From: Balneolaceae bacterium
GTDB taxonomy: Bacteria > Bacteroidota > Rhodothermia > Balneolales > Balneolaceae
Reading direction: 5' to 3'
Assembly (NCBI GenBank): GCA_034521445.1
Contig: JAXHMM010000011.1
Coordinates: forward strand, 62,001-126,000
DNA: 64,000 nucleotides
Position numbers and translations under genes: made by a program
Notes under the pieces: model-generated
Told to the model about the DNA's origin: nothing
The model's database searches: none
The model's input: the letters and a program-made list of their open reading frames with translations, nothing else
Part shown: one piece after another, positions 5,176 to 58,283 of the stretch
How the letters are laid out: each line of letters opens with the position of its first letter
How positions within the stretch are numbered: the stretch's first letter is position 1

Positions 5176-5178
5176 GGG

Positions 5179-6060: not shown

Positions 6061-6245
6061 GATTCGTTTACCTATGCTCGGCCGGAATTACGGATGTTTC
6101 GGGTCTCCCGAAAGGCACGTCCGGAAATACCGCGCCGGCCTTCCGGAGACCCTTCGAACTAAATATTTTCGTTATAGGCCCGTCTTCGCCTGAATAACTT
6201 GCCTCATCCAAAAAGCGGCCTTTAGAATATTAGGAGACCGGTTTT

Positions 6246-6281
6246 AGCCTCCGAAAGATCGAAGGTACGGGTTTTGAGGCT
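6246..6281 (+). promoter_or_regulatory. Inverted repeat in aguB/pckA divergent intergenic region
   Basis: AGCCTC at 6246-6251 and GAGGCT at 6276-6281 are perfect inverted repeats 24 bases apart. They lie in the divergent space between aguB (leftward) and pckA (rightward), upstream of a stronger hairpin at 6316-6339. Together they could form a leader structure on the pckA transcript. The stem is short and may be chance. Confidence 0.3.
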
Positions 6282-6315
6282 CCCATATTAACAATAATTA
6301 TTCGTATACTAACAG

Positions 6316-6339
6316 GCTCTCTGAAGAGAGCTTTTTTTT
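6316..6339 (+). terminator. Intrinsic-terminator-like hairpin just upstream of pckA
   Basis: GCTCTC, TGAA loop, GAGAGC, then eight consecutive T residues: a perfect six-base stem with a tetraloop and U-run, the standard shape of a rho-independent terminator. The aguB gene upstream points the other way, so no plus-strand gene ends here. The hairpin lies 38 bases before the pckA ATG. It may attenuate pckA or end a short leader RNA. Confidence 0.6.
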
Positions 6340-6377
6340 GATTGAACATTTCAGAAACCGAAACACAACAGCATCAG

Positions 6378-7976: not shown

Positions 7977-9058
7977 GCGCCCTCCTCCATCACCGCATTG
8001 AGCTTGTCCAGGTTGTCCTGCACGCGCAGGGCCTGGATCACCTCGTCGATCTCCCCCTTCATGATGTCCTCCAGGTTGTAGAGGGTCAGTCCGATGCGGT
8101 GGTCCGTGAGGCGGCTCTGGGGGTAATTATAGGTGCGGATTTTGGCGCTGCGGTCGCCCGTAGAAACCTGGCTCTTGCGTTCGGCCGCACGCTCCGCGCG
8201 CAGCTTCTCCTCCTCGCGCTCGTAGAGCTTGGTACGCAGCATGGTCATCGCCTTCTCCTTGTTCTGGTGCTGGGAGCGCTCCTGCTGGCACTCCACCACC
8301 ACGCCGGAGGGTTCGTGGGTAATGCGGATGGCAGAGTCGGTCTTGTTGACGTGCTGTCCCCCCGCCCCGCTGGCCCGGAAGGTGTCGATGCGCAGATCGG
8401 CCGTATTGATTTCGATATCCACCTCCTCGGCTTCCGGCAGCACGGCCACGGTGGCCGCCGAGGTATGCACGCGCCCCTGGGTCTCGGTCTCAGGCACACG
8501 CTGCACGCGGTGCACCCCGCTCTCGTACTTCATCTTGGAGTAGACTTCGTCGCCTTCCAGCCCGAAGACAATCTCCTTGAAGCCGCCCTTATCCCCTTCG
8601 CTGAGGGTCATTACGTTCAATTTCCAGCCCATGTGGTCAACGTAGCGCCGGTACATCTCGAACAGGTCGCCGGCAAAAATGGCGGCCTCGTCGCCGCCGG
8701 TGCCCGCGCGCACCTCCACGATGACGTTCTTGGAGTCGTCGGGATCCTTCGGGATGAGCATGAACTTGATCTTCTCCTCCAGCTTCTGCAGGCGCGGCTT
8801 GAGCTCCCTGTTCTCCTCTTCCGCCATCTCGGTGATTTCAGGGTCCTCCCCGTCCTCGATCAGCTCGCTGTTACCCTCGATCTGGCGGTTGATGGACTTG
8901 TATTCGTCGTAAAGATCCACCAGCTCCTTCAGGTCGCTGTGCTCCTTGGTCAGCTCGGTATAACGCTGGGGATCGTCGTATACAGAGGGGTCGCTCATGG
9001 CGGCGGTAACCTCCTCGAACCGCTCGCGGACCTGCTCCAGTTTCGCTTCAATATCCAT
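7973..9058 (-). CDS. prfA: Peptide chain release factor 1
   Basis: Class I release factor that reads UAA/UAG stop codons and triggers peptidyl-tRNA hydrolysis on the ribosome. The preferred start is the ATG at 9058 (MDIEAKLEQVRERFEEV), giving 361 residues, the usual length. The frame runs upstream to 9100 without resembling the family. Motifs are the PxT tripeptide as RVPETETQGRVHTS (RF1-type codon recognition rather than the SPF of RF2) and the catalytic GGQ in RASGAGGQHVNKTDSA. The gene is convergent with pckA and ends with it in a shared CTAG. No prmC methyltransferase gene is adjacent. Confidence 0.96.
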   Translation of the reverse strand: MDIEAKLEQVRERFEEVTAAMSDPSVYDDPQRYTELTKEHSDLKELVDLYDEYKSINRQIEGNSELIEDGEDPEITEMAEEENRELKPRLQKLEEKIKFMLIPKDPDDSKNVIVEVRAGTGGDEAAIFAGDLFEMYRRYVDHMGWKLNVMTLSEGDKGGFKEIVFGLEGDEVYSKMKYESGVHRVQRVPETETQGRVHTSAATVAVLPEAEEVDIEINTADLRIDTFRASGAGGQHVNKTDSAIRITHEPSGVVVECQQERSQHQNKEKAMTMLRTKLYEREEEKLRAERAAERKSQVSTGDRSAKIRTYNYPQSRLTDHRIGLTLYNLEDIMKGEIDEVIQALRVQDNLDKLNAVMEEGA

Positions 9059-9173
9059 GGGGTGCTGATAATTCGAATTCACGCGCCGGTAGGCTGTCAA
9101 AGTAGTAAAGTTCTATTACAAAATAAGGGATATTCGGCACTATTCACGGGTGGGCGGGGGTTAACTTTCACGC

Positions 9174-9192
9174 GCCAATGGGCTATATTGGC
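9174..9192. promoter_or_regulatory. Short inverted repeat upstream of purK
   Basis: GCCAAT at 9174-9179 and ATTGGC at 9187-9192 form a perfect six-base inverted repeat with a seven-base spacer, about 34 bases before the purK start. Position and symmetry suit an operator in the prfA/purK divergent promoter region, but no known repressor motif is recognised. Confidence 0.3.
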
Positions 9193-9225
9193 CCTTCATT
9201 CTTCGCAACGTAAAGCACAGTCCCC

Positions 9226-10383
9226 GTGTCCAACCCCCTTAGCGCCCGCTACCGGCTCGGCTTCCTGGGAGCCGGCCAGCTCGCCCGCATGTCCGGCCTC
9301 CAGGCCTTCCGTTTCGGCATCCAGGTCGGCGTTTTCTCCGACCGCGAGGAAAACGAGCCGGTCCAGTTCATGACCCCCCATTCCCGTTCCGGTTCCTTCG
9401 ATTCGGAGGTGGACCTTGCCGAATTCGCCCGAACCTGTGACGTACTCACCCTGGAGAACGAATTCATCGACTCGGAGGTGCTGGCCGCCGCCCAGGAGTC
9501 GAGCGGAACGCCCATCTATCCCTCCCCGGCCAGCTTCGCCCTCATTGAGAACAAGCTGATTGAGAAACAGACCTTCGAGAAGGCCGGCATCCCGGTCACT
9601 CCCTACGCCCTGGTGGAGGGCGAGCAGGAGCTCAAGGCCTTCGGGGCCGAACACGGCTGGCCCTACCTGCTGAAATCCTCCAAGGGCGGCTACGACGGCT
9701 ACGGCAACGAGACCGTGGACGACCTGGAGGAGGCGGTCCGGGCCTACCGTGACCTGGGAGGCGAAAAGGGGCGGGATATTGTGGCGGAAGCCTTCGTGGA
9801 TTTCACCCATGAGCTGGCCGTACAGGTGGCTCGCAACGAAACCGGCCACGTGGTTTATCCCTGCTGCGAGACGGTTCAGGAAGAGCACATCTGCGTGGCG
9901 GTGCGCTCTCCCGCGCCGGTGGACGAGTCGGTGCGGCAGCGGGCGCAGCAGCTGGCGGTGGCCGCCACCGAGGCCATCGACGGCCGAGGCATCTTCGCCT
10001 ACGAATTTTTCCTTACCCCGGAAGGCGAGGTGCTGCTGAACGAATCGGCCCCGCGCCCCCACAACTCCGGCCACTACACCATCGAGGGCTGCGTGACCTC
10101 CCAGTTTGAGAACCACGTGCGGGCCGTGCTGGGCCTGCCCCTCGGGGATCCCTCGCTGCGCACCCCGGCCGTAACCATGGTGAACCTGCTGGGCGCCCAC
10201 CGGCGTGATGCCCGGGTGGACCACGCCCTGTCGGCCGTGGCCGAAAAGGACGGCCACCTGCATGTCTACGGCAAGCTCGACAGCAAGCCCGGCCGCAAGA
10301 TGGGACACTACACCCTGCTGGGTGAAGATCCCGAGGCCACCTACCGGCGCGCCTGGGAGCTGGCCTCCGGCATTGAAATTTAG
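9226..10383 (+). CDS. purK: N5-carboxyaminoimidazole ribonucleotide synthase
   Basis: ATP-grasp enzyme that carboxylates aminoimidazole ribonucleotide with bicarbonate in de novo purine synthesis; its product is the substrate of PurE. The 385-residue protein starts at GTG 9226 (SNPLSARYRLGFLGAGQLARM). It has the nucleotide-binding GAGQLARM, the ATP-grasp segment PYLLKSSKGGYDGYGN, and the metal/active-site stretch FFLTPEGEVLLNESAPRPHNSGH followed by TIEGCVTSQFENHVRAV. These are all classical PurK signatures. purE follows 139 bases downstream on the same strand, so the two steps are encoded together. Confidence 0.95.
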   Translation: MSNPLSARYRLGFLGAGQLARMSGLQAFRFGIQVGVFSDREENEPVQFMTPHSRSGSFDSEVDLAEFARTCDVLTLENEFIDSEVLAAAQESSGTPIYPSPASFALIENKLIEKQTFEKAGIPVTPYALVEGEQELKAFGAEHGWPYLLKSSKGGYDGYGNETVDDLEEAVRAYRDLGGEKGRDIVAEAFVDFTHELAVQVARNETGHVVYPCCETVQEEHICVAVRSPAPVDESVRQRAQQLAVAATEAIDGRGIFAYEFFLTPEGEVLLNESAPRPHNSGHYTIEGCVTSQFENHVRAVLGLPLGDPSLRTPAVTMVNLLGAHRRDARVDHALSAVAEKDGHLHVYGKLDSKPGRKMGHYTLLGEDPEATYRRAWELASGIEI

Positions 10384-10522: not shown

Positions 10523-11014
10523 ATGAGTGACAAAAACACCCGCGTAGGAGTCATCATGGGCAGCGACAGCGACTGGCCCACCATGAAGGAGGCCTGCCAG
10601 ATCCTGGACCGTTTCGGCATCGCCTACGAAAAAAAGGTGGTATCGGCGCACCGTACGCCCGACATGATGGCCGAATACGGCAAGAGTGCGCGGGATCGGG
10701 GCCTGAAAGTGATCATCGCAGGCGCCGGCGGTGCGGCGCACCTTCCCGGCATGACCGCCGCCTACACCACCCTGCCTGTCATCGGCGTGCCGGTGAAGAC
10801 CAGCGCGCTGGGCGGCGTGGACAGCCTCTATTCCATCGTGCAGATGCCGGGAGGCGTGCCCGTGGCCACCGTGGCCATCGGCAAGGCCAAGAACGCCGGT
10901 CTGCTGGCCGCCCGCATCCTGGGGGCGGAAGACCCGGACGTGGCGGAGCAGCTTGAAGCCTATCACCGGGAGATGGCCGAGGAATCGGAAAAGAAAACTC
11001 GGAATCTCACCTGA
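10523..11014 (+). CDS. purE: N5-carboxyaminoimidazole ribonucleotide mutase
   Basis: Moves the carboxyl group of N5-CAIR to C4 to make CAIR, completing the PurK-PurE pair. The 163-residue length is typical of class I PurE. Signatures are [18 protein letters not shown], the catalytic [12 protein letters not shown], and [15 protein letters not shown]. The C-terminal stretch includes [20 protein letters not shown]. The gene starts at an ATG at 10523 and ends 17 bases before an SDR gene. The presence of PurK excludes the class II (animal-type) PurE route. Confidence 0.96.
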
Positions 11015-32683: not shown

Positions 32684-33397
32684 ATGGCAAGATGTACAGC
32701 GCCTGTAAGAGGGCATCGAACAGCTAGTGCGGCGGCAGCCTGTCCAGCCTGTGGAGGACGCTATCGCAGGTACAATTCTCACTCACATTATTCTTCATAT
32801 AGTAGTAGCTCTAGAAGCACAGGGGCTGGAAGTAGAAATTATGGGGGTGGGAACACAAGAAATGGAAAACCAAAATGGTCTAGCCCTAGTTCAAATATCT
32901 ATTATACACCAGCCGAGATTCGGACATTAACACCTATTCGTGAAAATATTGAAAAACGCTCAACTATACCTGACCTTCGCGACGTTTTTCTTTGTCACGC
33001 ATGGGATGACCGAAAAGATGCTGCGAAGGAATTACACGATTTACTTGATTCCAATGGAGTATCAGTATGGTTTAGCGAAAAGGATGTTTTGCTAGGTTCG
33101 TCATTACTTCGAAGAAATCGACAAAGGCTTGGCTAATTCGCGTGTTGGCATAGTACTGGTTACGCCATCTTTTCTGAATCCAGTAAAAAAGGAAGGTATT
33201 GCTGATAAGGAACTTTCGGCACTTTTAAGCACGTGATCGTACTTGTTCCTATTGTTCATAAAACAACATTCGAAGAACTTCGTGAAGTTAGCCCTTTACT
33301 CGGCTCAAGAAGCGGTCTGAGTACATTGGAAGAATCATTGGTGGATATTGCCTTTAAATTAGCCGAGTTGGTAGAAGTTGAAGAAGAATCTGCTTAA
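32684..33397 (+). pseudogene. Broken TIR-domain protein
   Basis: Starts at ATG 32684 as MARCTAPVRGHRTASAAAAC with a CPAC segment, a small Cys-rich head followed by a Ser/Tyr/Gly-rich linker. The TIR domain begins DVFLCHAWDDRKDAAKEL and continues GVSVWFSEKDVLLGSSL. A frameshift near 33,110 moves the reading to EIDKGLANSRVGIVLVTPSF, and another near 33,230 to VIVLVPIVHKTTFEELREV, ending EVEEESA at TAA 33395-33397. Undamaged, it would be about 237 residues. The catalytic-type glutamate expected in TIR NAD hydrolases would lie in the VSVWFSEKD segment. Related bacterial TIR proteins are NAD-consuming defence effectors, but that role is inference here. Confidence 0.75.
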
Positions 33398-33903: not shown

Positions 33904-34030
33904 CGTGCGAAACAAGGCGCATTAACCGCACCAGCCCTTGCTTTTCCGGGTAGATTCTACCAGATTCGAATTTCAATCACGGCTCAATGGTCCAACGGCC
34001 GGGCCGGTTACGCGCTACCACATTATAGGA
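33904..34030 (+). repeat. attC-like cassette recombination site I
   Basis: GCGCATTAACCG at 33917-33928 (L'') pairs with the reverse complement of CGGTTACGCGC at 34005-34015 (L'), leaving an extra T in the L'' arm as an extrahelical base, as attC sites have. A right-hand ATTATAGG box (degenerate GTTATAGG) follows. CCTATAA in site II is its complement, as expected if this is the start of the sigma-factor cassette. It is related in sequence to site III. Confidence 0.65.
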
Positions 34031-35460: not shown

Positions 35461-35601
35461 GGCCCTATAACCCGCACATTAAGGGGGACGTACCTCGCCC
35501 TTCCTTGCCAATTTTTACATCCTCAATTTCTGTAGTACATTTTGTTATTAAATTGACGTTAGTCTGCACACCCCTTATGCGCAATGTCGTTAAGTGGCCA
35601 C
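35461..35601 (+). repeat. attC-like cassette recombination site II
   Basis: Left R'' box CCCTATAAC (35463-35471), L'' GCACATTAAGGGG, and at the right end L' CCCCTTATGCGC with R' GTTAAGTGGCCAC (35589-35601). L'' and L' pair with an extra T in L''. The 18-mer TTATGCGCAATGTCGTTA at 35575-35592 recurs exactly in sites V and VI. It closes the sigma-factor cassette. Confidence 0.8.
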
Positions 35602-35626
35602 TTGAAACGACTCGAAAGTATAAACT

Positions 35627-37433
35627 ATGAGAATTAAATCAATAGACCTGACGGACTATCCTCCCATTGGTAAGTTCAAAATCGAAAACTTGGGAAGCAC
35701 CATAATTATTGCGGGTGCTAATGGATCCGGAAAAACGAGACTGAAGGAGGCTATCGTTCAGACAATACAAGGGAAGCCAGTTATGGATATGACTATAGAA
35801 GCTACCCGACCTGATGAAGAGGAAGAGAAATACTTTGGATCTCACGAGATTAGTGTCACTAAAGGGGTGAATAATGATAAGTTGAAAAACTATTTCAGGA
35901 GTCGGAGCTTTGGCCGAGGGCGTTATGTCGGTTCACTCGTTCAGATAGATTCTAATAGGAGTGTTGAGAATGTGAACTATTCTGCTGTGAACTGGCTAGG
36001 GGGAGATCCGGACGATCAGGAGACAGCGTCGAATTTTTACTTTTCGGCATTCCGTACAAGGTGGCAAGATTTCGTCAACTACATCCACCAAAAAACAGCA
36101 GCTCGCGGGAAGAAAATATCTGATGCCGTAATATCTGATCCTTCAAAGACTGGTGAAGAGGTGATTGCACTTCATCCAAATCCACTTGACAAGTACAAGA
36201 AAATATTTCGGGAAGCACTACCTGGAAAGGAACTACTGGACATAGACCCAAAGAGCCCCTCGTGATTTTCGATACTCAGATTCATCTGGACAAGAGCTTA
36301 ATTTCCAGACGTTGAGCTCTGGAGAGAAGGAGATCATTAAGGTTCTATTCGATGTCGCCAGAAAAGACATACGCCATTCAATTGTGATTGTCGATGAGCC
36401 AGAGCTTCACCTCCACCCGACCCTTACGTTTCAATTAGTCGAGTCCCTGAAAAGTCTCGGCGATCAGTACAAATCAATTCATATTTCTCACACACTCATC
36501 AGATTTAATAACCACATACTTCTCAACCGGAGATGTGTATTTCATAGATTCAGAAAATGATGGTACTAACCAAGCACATCGTCTGCTTGACCTAGTCGAG
36601 CAACACCACGAAATTGTACCCTTAATTGGGCAGAACATCGGCTTGTTCGCCGTCGGAAAGAAAATTGTATTCGTTGAGGGTGAGCATTCAAGCATAGATC
36701 GGCTTGCCTACCAGAAAATAGCTCAAAAAGTTGATAGCGAGATTCGGGTAGTACCTGCTGGTTCTGTTCTGAATGTATTCGCGCTAAGTCAGATTGAACG
36801 TCAGATTCGAACAGCCATTTATGTGGTATTGAGTTGTATATGGTTAGGGACCGAGACGGGTTATCTGATGATCAGGTCAGTAAACTCGAGGAGAACGGGC
36901 GAATCCGTTGCCTCAAAAGGCGACACATTGAAAATTATTTTCTCGACCCAGAAGTGCTAGCCGCGGTCGCGCAACGACTCTACATTAATAAGAGACATCC
37001 AGATGTCAATCGAGAGAGTGGATCGATCAATGTATCCAAGAGATAGTGCAAGAGTCAATAGGGTACACACTCTACAAAACCGTATGTGAGAACCTATCTA
37101 TGAATTATTCTATCCAGACATCCTAAGATATCTGATCTTCATAAAAAGACCTTAGATGATATCCGAACAGAGTTGCACAAGGGCGTTCTTGAGGGTGTAC
37201 GGGGTGTTGCCGACTCGTTAGATGATGCCAGTGTAAGTAGCTGGTTAGAGACTGAGTCGATGAACTTACAGCGCATGGTTGACGATGGTACATGGGTAAA
37301 GGGTTTCCACGGCAAGTACATCTTTAATCGTGTATGCAGTGAGGTCATGAGAGAGGATGCGATTCGAGTTAGGCACGCCTACGTTGACATAGCGCTCGAG
37401 CAATATCCGAATAAGATATCAGATCTGAATTGA
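35627..37433 (+). pseudogene. Broken AAA ATPase with TOPRIM/DUF4435-like C-terminus (OLD/PARIS-like)
   Basis: The first frame from ATG 35627 has the Walker A IIAGANGSGKTRLKEAI at about residues 27-43. After a frameshift near 36,260 come the ABC signature TLSSGEKEIIKVLFDV and Walker B HSIVIVDEPELHLHPTL. Further frames give TYFSTGDVYFIDSENDGT, then KIVFVEGEHSSIDRLAYQ, MVRDRDGLSDDQ and RCLKRRHIENYFLDPEVL. This SMC/OLD-type ATPase plus a TOPRIM-like 'VEGE...D.D...ENY' end resembles OLD nucleases or the AriA/AriB (DUF4435) pair of PARIS in one chain. At least four frameshifts disable it. It fills one cassette between site II and the R'' box at 37,507. Confidence 0.65.
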
Positions 37434-37506
37434 CATATATAACCAAATGTAAGTCACTTTATAATATTTAAGCCGAATGAAGTACGATGGTCTAAGTACG
37501 AAAACA

Positions 37507-37519
37507 GTGGCCACATAAC
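37507..37519 (+). repeat. R''-type box of a truncated attC site
   Basis: GTGGCCACATAAC matches the reverse complement of the cassette's own first bases (GTTAAGTGGCCAC, 35589-35601) at 12 of 13 positions. This identifies it as the left edge of that cassette's attC site. No matching L' and R' boxes follow in the next 130 bases, so the site is probably interrupted or eroded. Confidence 0.6.
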
Positions 37520-37949
37520 CGTATATATGGCCTCCAATGTCAAGGGCAATAGCATTCCCTGCAAGAAAGGGAAGTCCTTTCTCCCCGTTTCAGATTCGAC
37601 CCTTTTCTATCGACACTGTTCTGCAGGTATTTTTCAATTTGGGATGGCAGCCACATGACTGCACCAAACATATATAGAGGTTCGACGGAAACGGGCGGAA
37701 TTCATTCCACATCCCGTTCTCCGGTCCTGCTTATTGCGGTGACGACCATAGAGAATATTACGTTCCCTGAACCCGGATGATCACGCGGATGGCTATGGGC
37801 AGATGTCTCCGCCTATTCCAGTTATGGGACATCTCGGAGCAGGGGCAGCACATGCCGATTTCACCGGCAGCGAGCGAGCTGACGGGAATCGAATCAAATC
37901 CAAGGGCAACTACCGCATCCAACGGGGCGCCAGAGGTCGGCTTTTGGGC
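37520..37949. other. Non-coding stretch left of the IS110-type remnant
   Basis: No gene recognised. A short inverted pair (CCCTGCAAGAAAGGG region near 37,555-37,575) and mixed GC content are seen. It probably contains the left flank of the inserted IS110-type element and the interrupted remainder of the preceding attC site. Confidence 0.35.
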
Positions 37950-39174
37950 TTAGCCAGTCATTGAAGTGATCGAGCTGGTCGTTACAGAGCGGTAACTGGT
38001 CAAAAGCTCTCGCCTGGGTGCCTCAGTTATACGTCGGGCTTGCGGCAGCGCCCCATTCATACAGCTTTCCTGGTTGGGTGTTTTAATCCAGAAACGTGTA
38101 TTCATTAAATGGTTCGGATCGTTTGAGCATGTAGTAGACGGCCGTGCCCAGACGTTTGGCCAGGATCGTAAGGCAGGCTTCGGCTTCAGCCATGCCGGCA
38201 GATCAGCCTGTCGGTAGTACCGCCCGGCAAGATCATTGCGCCCCGCACATATAACAGCGCGGCTTCTGAGAAGGCCCAACGCAACTGCGCATTGCCGATG
38301 CGTCCGCCCGTGCTGCCATAAGACCTTCCCGGCCGAGGACTTTCTGCCCCTTTACCAAACGGGCGTAGGAGCAGAACTCTCCGCGAGAGGGAAACCGCCG
38401 GATGTCGTGAATCTCATAGAGCATCGTCAGCGCCAGTACATCACCGACTCCCCGGATGCTTCGCAGAAGGTGCAAACTGGTCGGTCGTGTCCCTCTGGCC
38501 AGCCGCAGGATCTGGCTGTCCAAGGCCTTGATGAGAGGATCGTAGTGGTCGATCATTTGAAGGTCGGCCTCCACGATAAAGCCGGACGACGGGATCCGGG
38601 ACATGCCCGACGATATCTTTACCCCGGCGGTGATGGGAACGCGACAGGGTGCCCAACGCGGGCAGGTTGTAGCCGACCGGCGTGGTATTCTGGACATGGG
38701 CCAGCAGTTCGGCCCGTTTGCGCACAAAATGCGTGCGCCGGCGCATCAGATCCCGGGCCGGTCGCATACGGGCCGGATAATAATAGGCGAGGGAAATTGC
38801 CGCCCCGCAGCAGCCGCGCAATTTTCAGTGAAGTCGATGCGGTCGTTCTTCGTCTTCACCCCATGAATGGGGATCTCATGTAGAGAGCATGACCCAGTAC
38901 AAATTCGATCCCCTCCCGATCACACAGATCGGCCAGCCAATACCAGCAAAAAAATACACTCCACGCCTACCAACAGCCCTTCCCGGTATGGGGTAATGGC
39001 AGCCAGAAACCAGTCCGGATGGCATGGCATGTTTTTGTGATAGACCGTTTGTCCCTCTTGGTTCAGGATACATACGTACATGGTCCTCTGCAGCTGCAGA
39101 TGCCCACTTGACTGCGCGGGAATCGCTTCGCTCGGAGCGCAGTAAAATAGATGTTGTTTAAGGTATACGTTCAT
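37950..39174 (-). pseudogene. IS110-family transposase remnant
   Basis: The minus strand, read through several frameshifts, gives an IS110 (DEDD) transposase. Its N-terminal part is QRTMYVCILNQEGQTVYHKN, then YREGLLVGVECIF and LADLCDREGIEFVLGHALYM. The middle is LAYYYPARMRPARDLMRRR and KRAELLAHVQNTT. The C-terminal transposase-20 domain reads LRSIRGVGDVLALTMLYEI and FPSRGEFCSYARLVKGQKVL. The tail continues in other frames (DLAGRYYRQADLPAWLKPK). At least five frameshifts make it inactive. Insertion ends are not defined; IS110 elements often lack clear terminal inverted repeats. It lies between a half attC site and attC-like site III. Confidence 0.78.
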
Positions 39175-39238
39175 GGCTTTCCTCTTTGGTTTTATTGAGG
39201 TTGTCCAGAACCCTGATCTGACGATTCCGAGAGGAGGC

Positions 39239-39374
39239 CGGTGAACAATATCAAGGCGCATTAACCGGACCGGACGGAAATTTGCTTTTGCCGGTCGGAT
39301 CTGCCAGATTGGAATCTACGCGCCTGGCTACAGCTTCACTGAACCGGCCGGTTATGCGCTACCACGTTATACTC
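39239..39374 (+). repeat. attC-like cassette recombination site III
   Basis: L'' GCGCATTAACCGGACCGG (39256-39273) pairs with L' CCGGCCGGTTATGCGC (39344-39359), leaving an unpaired T and an unpaired A in the L'' arm only. The R' box GTTATACTC begins at 39366. The 15 bases from 39366 are exactly complementary to 43456-43470 in site IV. Confidence 0.8.
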
Positions 39375-39498
39375 AATTTTTCATATCTATAGCAAAATTT
39401 CACTATTAAACTACTTCTCTAAGGATGACACGTACTGTCACAAATAACAATTACATTATTAAAACAAGACTAGAAATCAGTGACTAAAAACTGCAAAT

Positions 39499-42400
39499 AT
39501 GTCTAAAATTAATACGATTCAAAATAAGATACTTGAATTAAGCGGAGGACGATTTCAAGAAGTCGGCCGATTTGTATCTGAAAGCCAAAGGATATCAACA
39601 TATCAATAGTATTGGTTCAGTTTATGGCAAAGACAAAACTAGATCCGGTACACCAGATTCATTTATCTCACTTCCTGAATGGGAAGTATGTTTTTGCAGA
39701 GCACACTAACGAATGAATCCCGCTATTTGTTCAACAAGTTGAAGGATGATATAAACAAATGTCTTGATGTTGAAAAACATGGTATATCCGTAGAAAAAAT
39801 TGAAAAAATCCTTCTTGTTATACCGGAAGGTTAGCTCCGAAATGAAGAAAGTGAGCTTAAGAGAATTAGCGCATTCAAGGGGAGTATTTTATACGATCTA
39901 TTTAATCTTGAGGAAATCTCAGAATGATCTCTACTCACTTTTTTCCAAAAATTGCCAAAGATGAGCTTGGGATTAAGATTGATACCGGTCAGCATAGTTC
40001 AGCCAGCCGATTTCATTAAAATCCATGAGGATTCCAAGTATTTCAACTCCTCTGAGTTTAGACCTTCAGTTTAGAGAGACTGAAAAGATAATGCACTAAA
40101 GAAATTGGCTGATCACGATCTTTTGATTTTATCCGGTCCGGCTGGCGTGGGAAAACAAGATTGGCGTCCAAGTAGCAAAAGATTTCAAATCTGGCAACTC
40201 CGATTTCAATCTATGGTGCATATTCAAAAGAACAGCAGATCTTTGGGAGGATATACAGGATTATTTTTCATCTCCTGGTAAATATTCGATTATCGTTGAT
40301 GATGCCAATCGGATTAACAGTTTTTCATATGTGGTAGATTTTCTCAAGCATGCAAGTCCAAACCATGATATCAAAATTATTGCCACAGTCAGAGACTATG
40401 CATTATCAAAAGTAAAAAATGAGGCCTATCTGGAGGTGGACTTAGATGAATTAAACATAAAACCACTCACAGATGATCAAATAAAAGAGATTGTAAAAGT
40501 ACAGTTTGAAATTTCGATAAATCATCTTTTTCTCGATCGTATAGTTCAGATTGCAAAAAGGTAATCCGAGACTGGCCGTAATGGCTGCGTGATGTTTGCA
40601 AGAAAAGAGGATTCCATTTCGGCAATTAGCGATGTATCTGAACCATATATGATCAAATATTTCAAGTCCGGTCCACGATGATATTTTCAATGATGCGAAT
40701 CTCAATGGTAAGACAGATTTGAGTAGTCAAATTTTGTTAAAAACTTGCATCTATTATTTCTTTTTTCAAAGCCGTTGACCGTGAGAATGAAGAAATGATG
40801 AGCCTGATTGAGCAAGTGTTAGGCATTTCTAAAAAATGAGTTTTGGGAAGCAGCGTTATTTCTTCATGAGACCGAGTTTGTCTGACATGTATGAAAATAT
40901 CGTTCGCATGTCTGATCAGGTACTTGGAACATATTTCTTTTATCTATGCTTATTTAAAAAGAACTTAATTGAATTTGGTATGCGATCTCAATCATACCTT
41001 TCCTCAGTTTAAACATAGAATTGTTGATTCGTTAAATCCCTGACTTCTAAGTTCATTTGATCATCGCTCAAATTTTTGAATCAATTAAACCAGTAGTAAG
41101 CACACGTATTAACCATTTTCGGAAAAGAAGGCGATACAGGAAGTGTACATGATTTGATTGGAAACATTTTGGTTTGTAAATGAAACAGAAACGCTTCTTT
41201 TTGCAAAATCATTAATCGAAGAGACAACTTCTGAAAGGATCTGATTGATCAAGTTCAGTTTACTATCGACAAGAACTGGACCTCCTGACCGATCCAAGTC
41301 CTATCCTTATTGAAACCTTTTTCGAACGCTGAGCCCCGAAAACATTTGGAATTGCTATAGACCTAATTCTGGACTGATGCCGAAAAAAAGCCCTTCTGAA
41401 GTGCCAAAGATATTGGGTGTTTTAACTCGAGATTTTGGATTTAAACTGCACTCCTATAGAAGAAGGTTTGAGGTTCAGGAATTGGTAGTCGAAAAATTAA
41501 TCCAAAGAATATCCAAGGGAGAGGATCTTTTTAGATACACCTTTCTTGCTGTGAGCCGGTCTATTTTTAAAAACGCAGTTTGAATCATCTGGAATGAAAA
41601 AGACAATCGAACTGTACAGATTCACGAGGTTTTCCCACTTCCGTTGTCGTCCGATACAAAACAAACAATTGCGAAATAAAAATATGGCAACACATTTTTG
41701 AATTGTCAGAAAACTGGAAAGTACAGAGAAGAAGTTTTGAAGCTAGTTCGAAGCGTATTCTCAGCCACATTTGGAATTTGAAGAAGAAGTGGAACTTGTA
41801 GTATGGGAAAGCGATCTACGCGCTTTCGCATTTATCTTAGATGCTTGCAGAGAGAAGCAGTGGCGAGTATGATGGATGTCAGTGCTTTTCAAAGCTACCT
41901 TGACCTCCTCGACACAGTATACAATGTTACTGATGAGAAATCACTCCGTGAACAATACGCGAATGACATTTATCAAATTTCTGAAATATTCTTGCCAGAG
42001 AATGGGGAGTCAGGGATTCTGGAAGAAAAAATACATGGAAAGAATTTCATAAGCAGGAAAAAGTGCTCGACGCAAACGAGTTTATTGAGAGCTACACCAT
42101 AGAAGATTTTGTCGAATTGATTGTATGCATGTATAGTTATCTGAAAGAATCGCAGCAAAAGACAGATCTGATATATTGAGAAGTCTTAGGCTTCTAGTTA
42201 GTATTTGAGATATCGACTGCATTCCGAATTCCGATCTCTTTCTAGAAGCAATTCGATACTATTTGTCTATTGGAGATCCATTTAATATTAGGGGCAGGGA
42301 AGTAATAGAAAGTTGGCTTAACACTTGAAAAGCCAAATGTCGTTTTGGAGTCAATTGAAGGTTTTGAATTTTCGAATAAAGACCGTTGGATCTTCTGCTA

Positions 42401-43408
42401 TTATGAAGCACTTCCTGAAACAGAAAATTACTAAAATAGATACGAGTAATTTATGCGTACGAGACAAATTCCGTAGAGGCCAAGAATCTTCCAAGAGACT
42501 GGAATTATCTTACAAAATATACTTCTCAGGATAATAAAGCAGTTGAAACTGTACTACAAACACTAGTAGAGAGAGCAAAAGAAAATCCCGATGTTATTTC
42601 CGCACTGGATATGTTATTTCTAAGTTTTGAAAATATTGAGTCTCTCATAAGAGAGTACTCCAGAAGAAGTGTTTGGAAGCGGTAAAAAAAGCCTACCTTT
42701 TAGTTTCTGCAAAAAGAAATCATACTGACTATAAGGGCACCACCCTCTAATCTTTTACTTGATCGAGACATTGATTTTATCGAGGAGTTTATAAATTCAA
42801 TGTATCCCGAGGATACTGATTATATAAACGAGAGAGGGGACAATCGTGATTTTGCCTTCGTTTGGGATCGTGATGATTATATAAAGATTATCGATTTAGC
42901 GGTTGATCAAGTATATATGAATGAACAAAAGTCCAAAGCGTTTTGGGAGAGTAAATTACAAATATTTTTTGATGCCAATTTCAAAGAAAACACATCAAAA
43001 GAAGTCCAAGAGAAACAAATCCAATATCTGAAAGAATGCATCTCAAGTAAGTGTGAACAGATTCTAATTCCTTCAGTTTATTTTCCAAAATCATTAAAAA
43101 AGCTTCCTTCCAAAAAACGTCGAAATCTTATCGAATTATTTCTTAAGTCGGTAATCCAAGTACGTATGGACGATTTTAAAACTCTTCAGCTTGAGCCCAG
43201 TTCATGGGGTGGTGTTGGTAGCATGGTACCAGTTTTTTCGGGTAGAATTAAGTTTTTCGAATCATTATTACCACTGATGAATAGTGCAGATTTACTTTCT
43301 CACAAACAACTTATTGAAACCAAAATTGAAAGCTTGGAAGTAGATCTTCAAAGAGAGAAAAAGAGAGACTTTTTGAGTAGATTGATCTTTAAAATTTCAA
43401 TTCTTTAA
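39499..43408 (+). pseudogene. Broken nuclease-STAND NTPase (nSTAND3/Avs-like)
   Basis: From ATG 39499 the reading begins MSKINTIQNKILELSGGRFQ. After shifts come KGYQHINSIGSVYGKDKTRS, GTPDSFISLP (39647 on) and GKYVFAEHT, a PD-(D/E)xK-like nuclease core. The NTPase follows, with Walker A LILSGPAGVGK near 40,130-40,160 and Walker B YSIIVDDANRI near 40,285. Then come IKIIATVRDYALSKVKNE, DELNIKPLTDDQIKEIV and a long helical C-terminal sensor region running to FLSRLIFKISIL at 43408. Intact relatives of about 1,250-1,300 residues are large STAND ATPases resembling antiphage Avs proteins. At least ten frameshifts or stops are present. The whole gene is one 4.1-kb cassette. Confidence 0.65.
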
Positions 43409-43460
43409 CCAAATGGAAGTTGCTACCAATATCATCATAAAGCTGAATCGAAGTGAAAAT

Positions 43461-43609
43461 TGAGTATAACAACGGTTTCAACGCGGACTTGGCCACTGTT
43501 TGCCCTTTTTAAAATTTGTCCGACGAATAGCGTCAGTCTAGATTTTTGAATCTGACATAGGATGTCCCAGTAATGCAAGCCGGTTATGCTCGCAGGCCGT
43601 TATAAGGCA
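43461..43609 (+). repeat. attC-like cassette recombination site IV
   Basis: Left box TGAGTATAAC at 43461-43470; AACGCGGACTTG on the left arm pairs with CAAGCCGGTT on the right arm with one extra A, and the R' box GTTATAAGGCA starts at 43599. TATAAC and GTTATA form the outer stem. It closes the STAND cassette and opens the CPBP cassette. Confidence 0.72.
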
Positions 43610-43677: not shown

Positions 43678-44703
43678 ATGAAAAACTTTATCAAATCTCA
43701 TCCCATTATAAGCTACACCCTAATTACATTTGCTCTTTCCTGGTTCTTTTGGGGTAGTTCAATAGTTGTAAACTTTTCTGATGATATTTTTCTTGGCGTA
43801 ATTTTAGTTGGGGGATTTGGGCCTGCCATTGCGGCTTTTATCATGATGCACATTCAGTCAGAAAAGAAAATAACCCTAGGCAGCAACAGGTTATTCTGGT
43901 CGTTTTCCTTTATTGCTATTGTAGTAGTTGTTGTTACATATTTTTTAGTTCAGGGTTCCACCGATGAGGCTTGGGGAACTAGTATTTGGTCTGGCTTAAA
44001 GGAACCAGGATTACTAGCTATATTCCTCATCACAGCTTGTTGTCTTTTTTGGGGGCTCCTGGTTAGTAATGCTTACAATGGAGATCTTAAGGAGAATTTT
44101 CTAACCTCTTTTCTATTTCAGAATAAAAAAATCAAATGGTATGTCTTTGCTTTATTACTTTTTCCGGCAATTTATTCGTTAAGTTTTGGTGTCGGCAAAC
44201 TATTAAACTTTAACACAACAGAAGCAATATTTTCTCCTGATACTAATTTTTTTATAAGTTTCATACTTACCTTCATTTTTACGGGTGGCAATGAAGAGTT
44301 TGGGTGGAGAGGATTTTTTCAAAAAGAATTACAAAAAAAATACTCTCCGCTGTTCAGTGCTTTTGTTATAGCGATCGTTTGGGTTCTTTGGCATTTACCC
44401 TTGCACTATAATGGATTTTATCCCTCTGAATTTAGCTTTACTTCCCGTTTTGCACTGGGATTTCAAATGGCTTTACTGTATACCTGGCTGTATAACAAAT
44501 CCGGCTATTCTCTCCTGAGTGTCGTTATACTTCACGCTATGTATAATAATGTGTCAGATATCTTTGGATCTTCATATGTGCCTGCCATGTCGATAGGAAT
44601 CGTGCTAGTATTAATTTTTATTATCGAGGATAAAATGTGGGTTAAAAAGAGCTATCATGATAATATTTATCAGTCAAGTGCTTTAAGCCAAGAATCTACG
44701 TAG
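43678..44703 (+). CDS. CPBP-family intramembrane glutamic protease (Abi-like)
   Basis: A 341-residue membrane protein with about eight hydrophobic segments. It carries the CPBP/CAAX-protease motifs: motif 1 GGNEEFGWRGFFQKEL (Glu-Glu-x3-Arg), motif 2 VWVLWHLPLHYNGF (conserved His) and motif 3 SVVILHAMYNNVSD (His-x3-Asn). Family members cleave prenylated or membrane substrates, and some are bacteriocin self-immunity proteins. The substrate here is unknown. The gene is intact, AT-rich and the only gene of its cassette, with attC-like sites 68 bases upstream and 21 bases downstream. A GGAG-type ribosome-binding sequence (AAGGAGTC) precedes the ATG. Confidence 0.88.
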   Translation: MKNFIKSHPIISYTLITFALSWFFWGSSIVVNFSDDIFLGVILVGGFGPAIAAFIMMHIQSEKKITLGSNRLFWSFSFIAIVVVVVTYFLVQGSTDEAWGTSIWSGLKEPGLLAIFLITACCLFWGLLVSNAYNGDLKENFLTSFLFQNKKIKWYVFALLLFPAIYSLSFGVGKLLNFNTTEAIFSPDTNFFISFILTFIFTGGNEEFGWRGFFQKELQKKYSPLFSAFVIAIVWVLWHLPLHYNGFYPSEFSFTSRFALGFQMALLYTWLYNKSGYSLLSVVILHAMYNNVSDIFGSSYVPAMSIGIVLVLIFIIEDKMWVKKSYHDNIYQSSALSQEST

Positions 44704-44724: not shown

Positions 44725-44861
44725 TGCCATATAACCCACGCTCCAACGGGACACACCTCGCCCGGGCTTGCCACTTATCTGGCTTTTTAACTCTTCGTTC
44801 ATTTTATCTAATAAATCAACATTCATTCGCGTGCAGCTTATGCGCAATGTCGTTATATGGC
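44725..44861 (+). repeat. attC-like cassette recombination site V
   Basis: Outer boxes GCCATATAAC (44726-44735) and GTTATATGGC (44852-44861) are perfect inverted repeats. The 18-mer TTATGCGCAATGTCGTTA at 44838-44855 is identical to that in sites II and VI. TGCCATATAAC differs at one base from the complement of the CPBP cassette's start (43599-43609). Confidence 0.82.
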
Positions 44862-45048: not shown

Positions 45049-45636
45049 ATGGAAAAAGACGACATTAAATTTACCGCCAAGCATTTAGCTAAAAAACTTA
45101 AACTGCGAAATGCAAATTCCGAAGTCGTAAAAAGACATAATAAACTAAAGGAAATCTATGATGATGACCCAGAAAAAGCGTTAATCATAGATTCAGCAGT
45201 AGTTGAAGGTGAAAACTTGGATGATCCATTTCATTCTAAAGTTCTAATGAATGATGAGCTAAAATTACCACTTAAAACGGGTCTCCATAGAGCTGTGGGC
45301 GGTGACCACGATTACTCAACACCCGGAGACATTTTATGTGCCGCATTGGCTGTTTGTTTGGAAAGTACCATAAGAATGATTGCAGATAGATTAGAAATTC
45401 AATTGGATCACACAAAAGTGTCAGTTGGAGCCCATCTTGATGTTCGTGGCACATTAAGGTTTAATGACTCTGTTCCTGTAGGATTTCAAAAAATAAATGT
45501 GGAGGTAGAATTAGGTTCAGACAATGTAGGAGAAAAGGTTATAAATACTTTATTTAGTGCTGCAGTAAAAAGTTGCGTGGTCTATCAAACTTTAAAACCT
45601 GGTATTCCAATAGAAAAAAACTTGAAAATAATGTAA
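45049..45636 (+). CDS. OsmC/Ohr-family protein
   Basis: A 195-residue protein whose second half is the OsmC fold. The first redox cysteine is in DILCAALAVCLESTIRMIAD and the second in AAVKSCVVYQTLKPG, the usual pair of thiol-dependent peroxidases. An N-terminal extension of about 50 residues is Lys-rich (KFTAKHLAKKLKLRNANSEV). Family members reduce organic hydroperoxides in the cytoplasm; the specific substrate is unknown. The gene is intact and forms a single-gene cassette between attC-like sites V and VI, 188 bases after site V. The long leader may hold the promoter. Confidence 0.82.
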   Translation: MEKDDIKFTAKHLAKKLKLRNANSEVVKRHNKLKEIYDDDPEKALIIDSAVVEGENLDDPFHSKVLMNDELKLPLKTGLHRAVGGDHDYSTPGDILCAALAVCLESTIRMIADRLEIQLDHTKVSVGAHLDVRGTLRFNDSVPVGFQKINVEVELGSDNVGEKVINTLFSAAVKSCVVYQTLKPGIPIEKNLKIM

Positions 45637-45682
45637 ACCAATCTTGAATTGTCATAAACACCGGCTATAGCAAACAAGATCT

Positions 45683-45817
45683 GCCATATAACCCGCGCAT
45701 TAACGCGTACGCACCTCGCCAATTCCTTGCCAGCTCTTGGTTTTAAGGCTCCTCTTTCGTTAGTTGCTAATTTAACATTAATCCGTGCGCAGGTTATGCG
45801 CAATGTCGTTAACTGTC
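45683..45817 (+). repeat. attC-like cassette recombination site VI
   Basis: R'' GCCATATAAC (45683-45692) is the exact complement of the OsmC cassette's first ten bases (44852-44861). L'' GCGCATTAAC pairs with L' GGTTATGCGC with an extra T. The 18-mer shared with sites II and V is at 45794-45811. R' GTTAACTGTC starts at 45808. Confidence 0.82.
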
Positions 45818-54282: not shown

Positions 54283-55224
54283 ATGATGTTTGATTATACC
54301 GCGACCTACACCGACCAGTACCAGGTTACGATGTCCCAGGTCTATTTTCACAAAGGGATGAGAGATGAGACGGCCATTTTTGACTATTTTTTTCGAAAAT
54401 TACCGTTCGAAGGTGGTTATGCCGTATTTGCCGGTCTCGAAGATCTTCTGAATGCCCTTGAAAATTTCCGCTTCGACCAAAAAGACCTGGCGTTTTTGGA
54501 AAAGGAAGGGATGGACCGGGATTTTCTCGACTATCTTGAAGACTTCCGGTTTACGGGAAATATATATGCCGCAAAGGAGGGCGACCTCATCTTTCCCAAC
54601 CGGCCGGTGCTTAGTGTGGAAGCACCCATTATTGAAGCACAGCTTCTTGAGACGCTCACCCTTAATACGCTCAACTACCAGTCCTTGATCGCCACCAAAG
54701 CCAGCAGAATGAGGCTATCGGCCGGAAACCGTAAACTTGTGGATTTTGGATTGAGACGGGCTCCGGAACCGGCGGATATTCGGCCAGCCGCGCAGCCGTC
54801 ATCGGCGGATTTGACGCCACCAGCAATGTGCGCAGCGGACGCGATTACGGCATCCCGATATCGGGCACCATGGCCCACTCATTCGTGCAGCGCTACGATA
54901 AGGAGATAGATTCGTTCCGGGATTTTGCTGAAATACGCCCCCACGACGCTGTATTTCTTGTGGATACCTACGACACGTTAAAAAGCGGGGTGCCGAATGC
55001 GATTACGGTGGCGAAAGAGATGGAAGAGCGCGGTGAAAAACTCAAAGGCATCCGGCTCGACAGCGGTGACCTGGCCTGGCTGGCCAAAGAATCACGGGAA
55101 ATGCTGGATGAAGCCGGGCTGGACTATGTTAAAATTGCGGCCTCCAACCAGATTGATGAGCATATAATCAAGAGCCTGCTCAGCCAGCAAGCTCCCATCG
55201 ACCTGTTTGGGGTGGGCACGACGC
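54283..55224 (+). pseudogene. pncB: Nicotinate phosphoribosyltransferase, frameshifted and truncated
   Basis: Makes nicotinate mononucleotide from nicotinate in NAD salvage. From ATG 54283 the frame gives DYTATYTDQYQVTMSQVYF, VFAGLEDLLNALENFRF, PNRPVLSVEAPIIEAQLLET and LLNTLNYQSLIATKASRMRL-like residues (NTLNYQSLIATKASRMRL). A frameshift occurs near 54,760; the continuation SASRAAVIGGFDATSNV and GRDYGIPISGTMAHSFVQRY shifts frame again. It then gives FLVDTYDTLKSGVPNAI, IRLDSGDLAWLAKESREML and IAASNQIDEHII. It stops resembling the family after DLFGVGT near 55,218, about 100 residues early, where the sequence changes to the reverse of a P-II-like gene. Confidence 0.85.
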
Positions 55225-55229
55225 CTAAT

Positions 55230-55436
55230 GCACGCCTCGTTTTGGATGGAGAAGAAGAGCGTGGAGTAGACGCCGTAGCGGTCCTGTGCAAACCAGTTGG
55301 AGATGTCCGGCTGGTGCTCTTCTGTCCGGAAGCCGTGGATCTCCGTTTCGCTGTAGATGGGTACCTTCTGGCGGGCCAGGATTTTCCGTACGTCGTTGGT
55401 GTATTCTTCGATGCTGAGGATGATGAGCAGTTTCAT
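55230..55436 (-). pseudogene. Truncated P-II-like small protein of efflux cluster
   Basis: The minus strand from ATG 55436 reads MKLLIILSIEEYTNDVRKIL, then KVPIYSETEIHGFRTEEHQ and RYGVYSTLFFSIQNEA. This resembles small P-II/DUF3240-type proteins encoded next to RND efflux genes. After FFSIQNEA, at about 55,230, the sequence becomes the reverse strand of pncB, so the normal C terminus of about 30 residues is missing. The start is five bases after the probable end of the RND gene, so they were once one operon. Confidence 0.45.
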
Positions 55437-55438
55437 AG

Positions 55439-58283
55439 TCAGGCGGTTTCGTTGTTGCAGATGTGAATCCCTTTCTGCGTCTACTGAAATAGATCAGGGG
55501 AACCATGATCAGGGTCAGGGCTGTAGAGGCGACCGCGCCGCCCATCAGGGAGATGGCCAGTCCCTGGAAGATGGGGTCAAACAGGATCACGACCGCCCCG
55601 ATGACCACCGTGCCGGCTGTCAGCAAGAATGGGCATGCTGCGGACGGCGCCGGCCTCGATGACCGCCTGCTTGAGCGAAATCCCGTCCTTGAGTCGCAGG
55701 TTGATGAAGTCGATCAGCAGCACGGAGTTACGCACCATGATGCCGGCCAGGGCGATCATGCCAATCATGGAGGTGGCCGTAAAGAAGGCGCCCAGCAGCC
55801 AGTGGCCGATCATGATGCCCACCAGTGACAGCGGTATGGCGATCATCATGATAATGGGCACCTTGAAGTCCTGGAACCAGCCGATGATCAGCATGTAGAT
55901 GATCACCAGCACCACGGCGAAGGCGATGCCCAGGTCGCGGAATACCTCGTAGGTGATCTGCCACTCGCCGTCCCACTTGAGCGTGTAATCCTCCTGCATG
56001 AAGGGCTGCCCGGCGAAGATCTGCTCCAGGCTGTAGCCCGCCGGCATGTCGATCTCCGCGATCTGCTCGCCGGCGTCCAGGATGGCGTAGACGGGACTCT
56101 CGATGGCGCCGGCGACCTCGGCGGTCACGTACATGACGCGCCGCTGGTTCTTGCGGTGGATGCTGGGCTCGAGCGTTTCCTCCCGCACGCTGACCAGGTC
56201 CGCAACCGGCACCATGCTGCCCGGATGCCGACTGCATGTAGAGCTCGCTGGAGCTGCGGAATGCCGGAGCGATCCGCCTTCGGGAAGCTCCAGGACGATG
56301 GGAATCTCGTTGACCTCCCGGTCGCTGTACAGGCGCGAGACCGGCATGCCCTCCAGGGCCATGGTCACCGTCTCCACCACCTGCCCGGAGGGAATGCCCG
56401 AGAGCATGGCCTTCTCGGTGTTCACGTCCAGCCGGTACTTGGATCTGCGGCGCCTCCACGCATCCAGTCCACATCCACCACGCCTTCCATGCTCGCGGAA
56501 AATGTCCATGACCTGGCCGGCGACGCGTGCGCGCTGCGTCGCTGTCCGGGCCGTAGATCTCGGCCACCAGGGTGGACAGCACCGGCGGGCCGGGCGGGAC
56601 CTCCACCACCTTGATGTTGGCGTCGTACTTGCGGCCCGACCTGTTGAACGATGGGACGAATGCGCTTGGCGATGGCGTGGCTCTGATCGCTTCGCTCGCC
56701 TTTCTCCACCAGGTTGAGCTGGATGTCGGCAACGTTGGCGCTGCCGGCGCAGGTCGTAGTGGCGCACCAGTCCGTTGAAATTGATGGGCGCGTTAAGCCC
56801 CGCATAGATCTGGTAGTCCTTCAGCTCGGGCAGGTCCTTCAGGCTGATGCCCACCTCCCGCGCCACGGCGTTGGTGCGCTCCAGGGTGGTGCCCTCGGGC
56901 ATGTCGATGATGAGCTGCACCTCGTTCTTGTTGTCGAAGGGCAGCATCTTCACCTCCACCATGCGGAAGTACAAACAGCAGCGTGGAGGCCAGCAGCAGG
57001 AGCGTCACCCCGCCGATGAACATCCAGCGGTAGGTCGCCTGTTCCAGGAGCGGCTCGCATGGTTCCGCGCAGTACCATCGGTAGATGCGCGTGTCTTCCA
57101 GCCGGTAGGCCTTTTCGCTGCCGCTCCTCATCCTTTTCCGGCTTGACATGCGGCAGCAGCTTGTAGGCCAGCCACGGGGTTATCACCAGGGCCACAATCA
57201 GCGAGAAGATCATCGCCAGGGAGGCCCCGATGGGCATGGGACTCATATAGGGTCCCATAAGCCCCGATACAAAGGCCATGGGCAGCACGGCGGATATCAC
57301 CGTGAAGGTGGCCAGGATGGTGGGGTTGCCCACCTCGTTGATGGAGGCGATGGCAGCCTGCTTGAAGGGCAGCTTCCTCATCTTGAAGTGCCGGTGCATA
57401 TTTTCGGCTACGATGATGGAGTCGTCCACCACGATGCCGGTCACGAAGACCAGCGCGAAGAGGGTGATGCGGTTCAGCGTGTAGCCGAAGAGATAGTACA
57501 GAAAAAGGGTCAGGGCGAAGGTGACCGGCACTGAGAGGAAGACCACCAGTCCGCCCCGCCATCCCATGGCCAGGGCCACGACGACGGTCACGGCCAGGAT
57601 GGCCGCCAGCAGGTGTTCCAGCAGCGAAAGCACCTTGTTGGCCGCCGTCTCCCCGTAGTTGCGGGTGGTGGTCACGGTGATGTCGGAAGGTATGAGGCTG
57701 CCCTCCAGCAGCGCGATCTTCTCCTCCACCTGCCCGGCGATGTACATGGCGTCCGCCCCGGGGCGCTTGGCCACCGAAATGGTCACGGCGGGAAAGGACT
57801 CGCCCGGCATCAGATCACCTTTTCCCGCGGCCGCCCTTCCCAGCCCGTAGGAAACATAGTCTGTGGGCTCACCGGGACCGTCGCTTACCGTCTGCGATGC
57901 TGCCCAGGTAGATGGGGTCGCCGTTGCGCACGTCGACCACCAGGCTGCGCACCTCCTCGGCGTCGCGGAAGAAGTCGCCCGTGTCTACCAGGTAGCTGGT
58001 GTCGGCCCGGTCAAAGGAGCCCGAACGAAAGCTCCCGGTTGGCCGCGCGGATCTGGCCGGCCACCTGCATGGGATCGATGCCGTAGGAGGCCATCCTGGC
58101 CTTGTCGAGCTGCACGCGAACCTGCCGGGTTCGTCCCCCGTGCAGGCTGGTCTGCGCCACGTCGTCGATTTTCTTGATCTCCAGGGCCAGCTCGTCGGCC
58201 ACCCGCCGGATCTGGTAGTCGTCGTAGCTGCGGCTCCACAGGGTCAGCGTCATGATGGGCACGTCGTCGATGGAGCGCGGTAA
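55439..58283 (-). pseudogene. RND efflux permease, 5'-truncated with many frameshifts
   Basis: Read leftward from 58283, it begins inside the protein with LPRSIDDVPIMTLTLWSRSY and RRVADELALEIKKIDDVAQT (first periplasmic part). In-frame pieces then include MPGESFPAVTISVAKRPGAD, FLSVPVTFALTLFLYYLFG, and the characteristic TM4 region FVTGIVVDDSIIVAENMHRH. Later pieces are [40 protein letters not shown] and [19 protein letters not shown]. The end is SMPILLTAGTVVIGAVVILF and a stop near 55,439. At least six frameshifts and loss of roughly the first 150 residues make it non-functional. The base composition is GC-rich like the host genes. Confidence 0.85.

Follow-up and report, generated by a model that had tools for sequence, protein, structure and literature searches.

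Introduction

The described proteins closest to the gene discussed here are the Avs immune sensors. Avs4 (AVAST type IV; PDB 8dgf, bound to a phage portal) has an N-terminal PD-(D/E)xK nuclease, a STAND NTPase and a helical C terminus. Avs3 (8dgc) and Avs5 (9jap, 9nc9) have the same STAND core and the same order of effector, switch and sensor as our family, although the effector of Avs5 is a SIR2 domain and Avs3 is much longer, at ~2,000 residues.

Integrons are also known to keep anti-phage genes as cassettes (Darracq 2025, Kieffer 2025, Getz 2025, reviewed in PMC12409362). In that review, the integron defence genes are described as small and size-streamlined, with larger systems notably absent. 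In chromosomal integrons the median coding sequence is 362 bp, excision has been tried only up to ~3 kb, and long cassettes are slower under some conditions (PMC5371416). Integrons of Salinibacter and Ignavibacteria have been described (IntegronFinder 2.0, PMC9024848), the sections of that paper used here giving no large cassette contents. In contrast to the small genes of the reviewed integrons, the family presented here occurs in several phyla as a single-gene Avs-like cassette of 3.9-4.2 kb.

The cassette and its attC sites

The window, that is, the whole 64,000-nucleotide stretch of DNA analysed, is G000:C11:62001-126000 of a 3.2-Mb genome. Its AT-rich part from 31 to 47 kb contains six attC-type sites, which are listed here together with the features between them.

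33908..34030, + strand: attC-type site I, of the same class as site III (71% identity to site III over 120 nt)
35465..35595, + strand: attC site II, TTATGCGCAATGTCGTTA-core class, with an identical core on contig C6 beside the IntI integron
37950..39261, - strand: broken IS110-family transposase, outside the cassette, ending just upstream of site III
39240..39372, + strand: attC site III, the upstream cassette border, crossover at ~39366, inside GTTATAC
39373..39498, + strand: cassette leader, AT-rich
43464..43605, + strand: attC site IV, the downstream cassette border, crossover at ~43600, inside GTTATAA
43678..44703, + strand: next cassette, an intact 341-aa membrane protein, putatively CAAX-type protease-like (sequence reading only)
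44729..44858, + strand: attC site V, TTATGCGCAATGTCGTTA core
45049-45636: intact 195-aa gene before site VI, possibly OsmC-like, judged from its sequence alone
45682..45814, + strand: attC site VI, TTATGCGCAATGTCGTTA core, 3' of the intact 195-aa gene

From crossover to crossover, the unit between sites III and IV measures ~4.24 kb. It is filled by one gene (39499-43408, + strand) that lies in the attC orientation, and it has an attC at both borders, as expected for the single large cassette that an earlier note on this DNA had proposed. It is also, as that note held, longer than typical cassettes when set against the 362-bp median coding sequence (PMC5371416); the neighbouring units in the window are of 1.6, 3.8, 1.25 and 0.95 kb.

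Sites III and IV are genuine attC-type sites. The arms of site III pair with each other (GCGCATTAACCGGACCGG / CCGGCCGGTTATGCGC), with a paired-arm score higher than that of all 300 shuffles, and its repeat class has a similarity score of 67, compared with a shuffled mean of 16. This class has two further copies in the genome, at 33908-34030 of the window and at G000:C3:570645-570790. Site IV pairs less well than site III, its R'' and R' matching at 6/7 positions (p ~0.05), and it has the core GGTTATGC, which is the same as in other window sites, together with a left arm resembling the attC of the array-bearing Melioribacteraceae genome G195 (p 0.003). Both borders of the unit thus hold up as attC, with site IV the weaker on pairing. 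The TTATGCGCAATGTCGTTA core common to sites II, V and VI occurs six times in the genome, once with a mismatch, and two of the six are on contig C6, beside a full integron integrase.

It is worth adding that the copy on contig C3 (1501-1645 of locus L030) is a lone site of the site III type outside any array, and that its likeness to site III runs ~20 nt upstream of R''. An Rfam scan of the window at gathering scores gave no matches.

The window array has no integrase of its own nearby. A full IntI-type integrase is encoded on contig C6 (TIGR02249, 433 bits, above the cut-off), the same cut-off being reached in 0/14 control genomes. The unit between sites III and IV is thus very probably one integron gene cassette of ~4.2 kb, with one Avs4-like immune-sensor gene and its integrase on another contig. 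The genome's own integron (G000:C6:702000-720000) consists of IntI, attC sites and many small genes, which appear to be toxin-antitoxin cassettes (PIN, MNT-HEPN, ParE-like and RelE-like).

Promoter-like sites in the leader (39373-39498) are not above chance. The neighbouring unit of 3.8 kb (35596-39240), bounded by sites II and III, contains a broken gene for an AAA_21/OLD-like ATPase and the broken IS110 transposase; the latter matches Pfam Transposase_20 at 38236-38727 (E 1.6e-9), IS110 being present as a single copy in the genome. Upstream of the array, at 32684-33133, is a broken TIR_2-domain gene (E 5.4e-7).

The interrupted gene

The gene is laid out as follows, and the PD-(D/E)xK-like region, P-loop and DD Walker B reported earlier can all be located in it.

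39499..43408, + strand: interrupted gene for a ~1,250-aa protein with PD-(D/E)xK nuclease, STAND NTPase and helical C-terminal region, collinear in tblastn with intact relatives
39499..39970, + strand: nuclease domain, with the motif GTPD(S) at 39647-39661 and ExT within VFAEHTN at 39690-39710
40037..40980, + strand: STAND NTPase core, with the P-loop GPAGVGK at 40135-40155, the Walker B DD within IIVDDANR at 40289-40312, TVRDYAL at 40385-40405 and GNPRLAVMAA (GNPR) at 40560-40589
40981..43408, + strand: helical C-terminal region, presumed sensor, helical in the model of a relative

The gene pieces, spread over three frames, match a single intact protein of 1,252 aa from another Balneolaceae genome (G010, locus L042). 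A frame-aware alignment to the family profile pairs 1,243 codons, with residues 1-1252 in order, and the frame-corrected gene is 39% identical to one relative (L047). The raw fragment itself matches nSTAND3 (E 2.2e-4), and the C-terminal region aligns with the family C terminus (hhalign 98.4%). The last ORF (42800-43408, 202 aa) is unbroken and matches the G010 relative with E 1.8e-17; used alone as a query, it found no relatives in genome contigs. Once corrected for frame, the window gene is collinear with the STAND family over residues 1-1252.

As deposited, the window copy is broken. Depending on the penalty applied, it has 16-44 apparent frameshifts and 1-7 stops, compared with 0 in three intact controls, and in this form it would no longer yield the full protein. 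The term decayed, used in the earlier note, is thus correct for the deposited sequence, but part of the damage may be sequencing error. The organism may instead have an intact gene, the frameshifts being indel errors in the assembly consensus; this is a serious possibility, though short of probable. It would fit with the 55/58 near-invariant residues that are kept, which is inside the range of intact members, although this figure is inflated because the frame path was optimised to match the family. With a low frameshift penalty there are 44 frameshifts and only 2 stops, neighbours such as 43678-44703 are unbroken, and the other broken genes are patchy, including, at 54-58 kb, an AcrB-type pump and the start of a nicotinate phosphoribosyltransferase. 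Against this, stricter penalties still leave 16-23 frameshifts and 7 stops, and close by, the IS110 and further genes of the mobile region are broken too, as real decay predicts. Both of the frameshifted genes at 54283-57810 of the window, for nicotinate phosphoribosyltransferase and for the AcrB-type efflux pump, lie in a GC-rich part that does not belong to the integron, and suggest patches of consensus indels in the contig.

The protein family and its likely function

Relatives were found by running a profile of intact relatives against genome contigs. Across 80 genome loci and 2 viral loci, 67 members are intact, with lengths of 1,180 aa or more; phage genomes gave no matches and viral contigs two. 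Pfam nSTAND3 is found in 36/36 relatives and nSTAND_NTPase5 in 32/36.

The AlphaFold model of the Idiomarina relative (L110; 1,196 residues, pLDDT 86.6) has a long helical C terminus, and its best whole-chain matches in the PDB are Avs4 (E 3e-13), Avs3 and Avs5 (EfAvs5). Residues 154-505 are predicted to have a STAND fold, with Z of 16-19 to CED-4, Apaf-1, RPP1 and EfAvs5. Residues 1-158, modelled alone (pLDDT 88), have a restriction-endonuclease fold, the best match being Avs4 (Z 12.2, over 145 residues), followed by LlaBIII (10.4), AspBHI (10.2) and FokI (9.0), with MspJI also matching. The predicted order of nuclease, STAND and long C-terminal region in this model is that of Avs4. The P-loop, Walker B, TxR sensor and GNPR-type motifs do not vary within the family, and the window gene has all of them. 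At the predicted nuclease site, D49 is invariant and E63 is conserved at 94%, but the family consensus has ExT where ExK would supply the catalytic lysine, with an invariant K74 nearby. The two folds, the whole-chain matches and nSTAND3 in 36/36 relatives support the description of the gene as a nuclease-STAND of the Avs type. A non-STAND family is rejected by the nSTAND3 matches, the Avs whole-chain matches and the STAND fold. Two sets of PDB hits by sequence, those of the N-terminal profile to haemagglutinin (E 0.16 or worse) and those to UvrA, are due to chance or to generic P-loops.

The placement among the Avs families, also put forward in the earlier note, holds by fold but not by the PADLOC Avs models, which at E 0.01 match none of the 36 members scanned; the same PADLOC library did recognise an Avs4-like neighbour of one relative (L113). 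We therefore file the family as Avs4-like, and not as Avs4. It differs from Avs4 also in length (~1,250 aa as against ~1,540 modelled residues), in sequence (~12% identity) and in being carried in integron cassettes.

By analogy with Avs proteins, the C-terminal helical region, when expressed, would bind a phage protein, whereupon the STAND NTPase would oligomerise and the nuclease would cut DNA; the cassette itself would be moved by IntI via its attC sites. Phage sensing followed by STAND-driven nuclease activation is the most likely function, given the fold and the defence-gene neighbours, and an anti-phage role of the family is presumed on this analogy. The scan for defence genes covered neighbours picked by eye: hand-picked relatives outside integrons adjoin a type I RM system, a type III RM system together with DrmD, and an Avs4-like gene paired with one for MBL. 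It is unlikely that the STAND protein instead has a role outside defence, for example as a toxin or a regulator of the array. Such a role would agree with the lack of a match to any recognised defence model in PADLOC and with the hipBA that adjoins one relative, but not with three anti-phage Avs proteins as the top whole-chain matches, a predicted nuclease effector, and the presence of several relatives within defence islands.

The gene also has relatives on plasmids in Leptospira interrogans and L. noguchii (NZ_CP092679.1, 33102-36821, and 12 other records), labelled hypothetical protein where annotated.

Cassettes in other bacteria

The presumed immune sensor is found between attC sites in several other bacteria. 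In Melioribacteraceae SCALA702 (genome G195, loci L033/L094) it lies within a 16-kb array with ~10 attC repeats, in Stygiobacter (also Melioribacteraceae; genome G172, loci L032/L081) an intact gene lies between attC sites, and in Idiomarina (L110) an intact gene has a textbook attC on either side. The last is true also of a gammaproteobacterial copy (L046), the gene here having 2 stops. In Vibrio (L062) there is an attC downstream and a left end shared with the Idiomarina cassette, in Scalindua (L068) an attC downstream only, and locus L058 and the 5'-truncated site L048 have the look of cassettes by eye. Each of these genomes that was tested has an IntI hit above the cut-off: G195, G172 (a broken gene), and the genomes of L046, L110, L068, L062 and L072. 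The gene also occurs in Vibrio pectenicida (L064) and Shewanella (L114), with no clear downstream attC and no IntI hit, and four further homologues from the order of Idiomarina have no clear attC on both sides. The intact attC-flanked homologues sought in the earlier note are thus found in G195, G172 and L110.

The Vibrio (L062) and Idiomarina (L110) loci share the same 3.93-kb cassette. They are 84% identical only across 5928-9856. This stretch runs from GTTATAGGGC, where the upstream attC has its crossover point, as far as R' in the downstream one, and the flanks are unrelated. A cassette that has moved should leave just such a trace, identity bounded by the crossover points, and the alignment thus indicates that one such cassette has been transferred between Vibrio and Idiomarina with exact boundaries. 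This movement as a unit is seen for the Vibrio and Idiomarina relatives, which are distinct from the window copy. In the family tree, cassette members occupy four separate places, with at least six label changes. The suggestion that large defence-type genes travel as cassettes is borne out by this shared cassette and by the attC-flanked relatives in other phyla.

That the window gene was never one mobile cassette, and lies by chance between two unrelated attC-like sequences or in two cassettes fused via attC loss, is very improbable: site IV is weak by pairing alone (p ~0.05) and a broken IS110 end adjoins site III, but the whole unit is taken up by one gene in the attC orientation, and several relatives each lie in a single 3.9-4.1-kb cassette, which in one case has moved in one piece.

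The recurrent Avs-like single-gene cassettes of 3.9-4.2 kb, of which the window unit is very probably one, are new, since larger systems have been called absent from integrons, the median coding sequence is small, and excision has been tried only to ~3 kb. A limited literature search found no other reports of such large Avs-like cassettes. The family is a counter-example to the absence of larger defence systems from integrons. Given at least four places in the tree, the integron route is open to immune sensors almost as large as Avs. This joins the fields of integrons and STAND immunity, with intact testable cassettes at hand in Idiomarina, Vibrio and Melioribacteraceae, and lets any effect of cassette size on excision past 3 kb be tested directly.

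Several minor observations concern these loci. The SCALA702 copy (L033, 5892-9629) is an open frame that has ATA at the conserved N terminus and is without ATG, GTG or TTG. An attC-like match within 300 bp downstream in L094 is due to chance, the real attC being at 9948-10077. In Scalindua, the gene that follows directly on the family copy and its attC (L068, 9925-12777) encodes a protein of 950 aa whose N terminus is SEFIR/TIR-like. Flank repeats of L087, L055 and L079 were rejected as attC, since by inspection they are not attC-like.

Arrays in Bacteroidota

Relatives in Bacteroidota are flanked by attC-like imperfect palindromes of ~130 bp, which occur in arrays.

L077: attC-like palindromes at 3411-3537, 7488-7618, 9114-9248, 9855-9987 and 10646-10778
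L101: attC-like palindromes at 5687-5818 and 9964-10097
L089: attC-like palindrome at 5120-5250
L092: attC-like palindrome at 9862-9995

L101 and L102 have the gene unit in common, and its limits coincide exactly with two successive R'-like ends. No IntI above the cut-off was found in the tested genomes that have such arrays. The Bacteroidota arrays look like an integron-like cassette system that uses another, putative recombinase.

We tentatively propose that this compact, unnamed Avs4-like family has passed from phylum to phylum mostly in the form of full-size single-gene cassettes, through IntI integrons and through the Bacteroidota attC-like arrays in genomes that yielded no IntI; this is possible, but doubtful enough to be held loosely. 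If true, it would mean that cassette systems routinely carry large immune sensors and impose no strict size filter.

Copies outside arrays keep the left end of the cassette and stop exactly at R'', the attC hairpin being precisely lost. This loss is seen in three groups, namely in L064 compared with L062 (at 9783), in L127 compared with L110, and in L075 and L078 compared with L077 (at ~7492).
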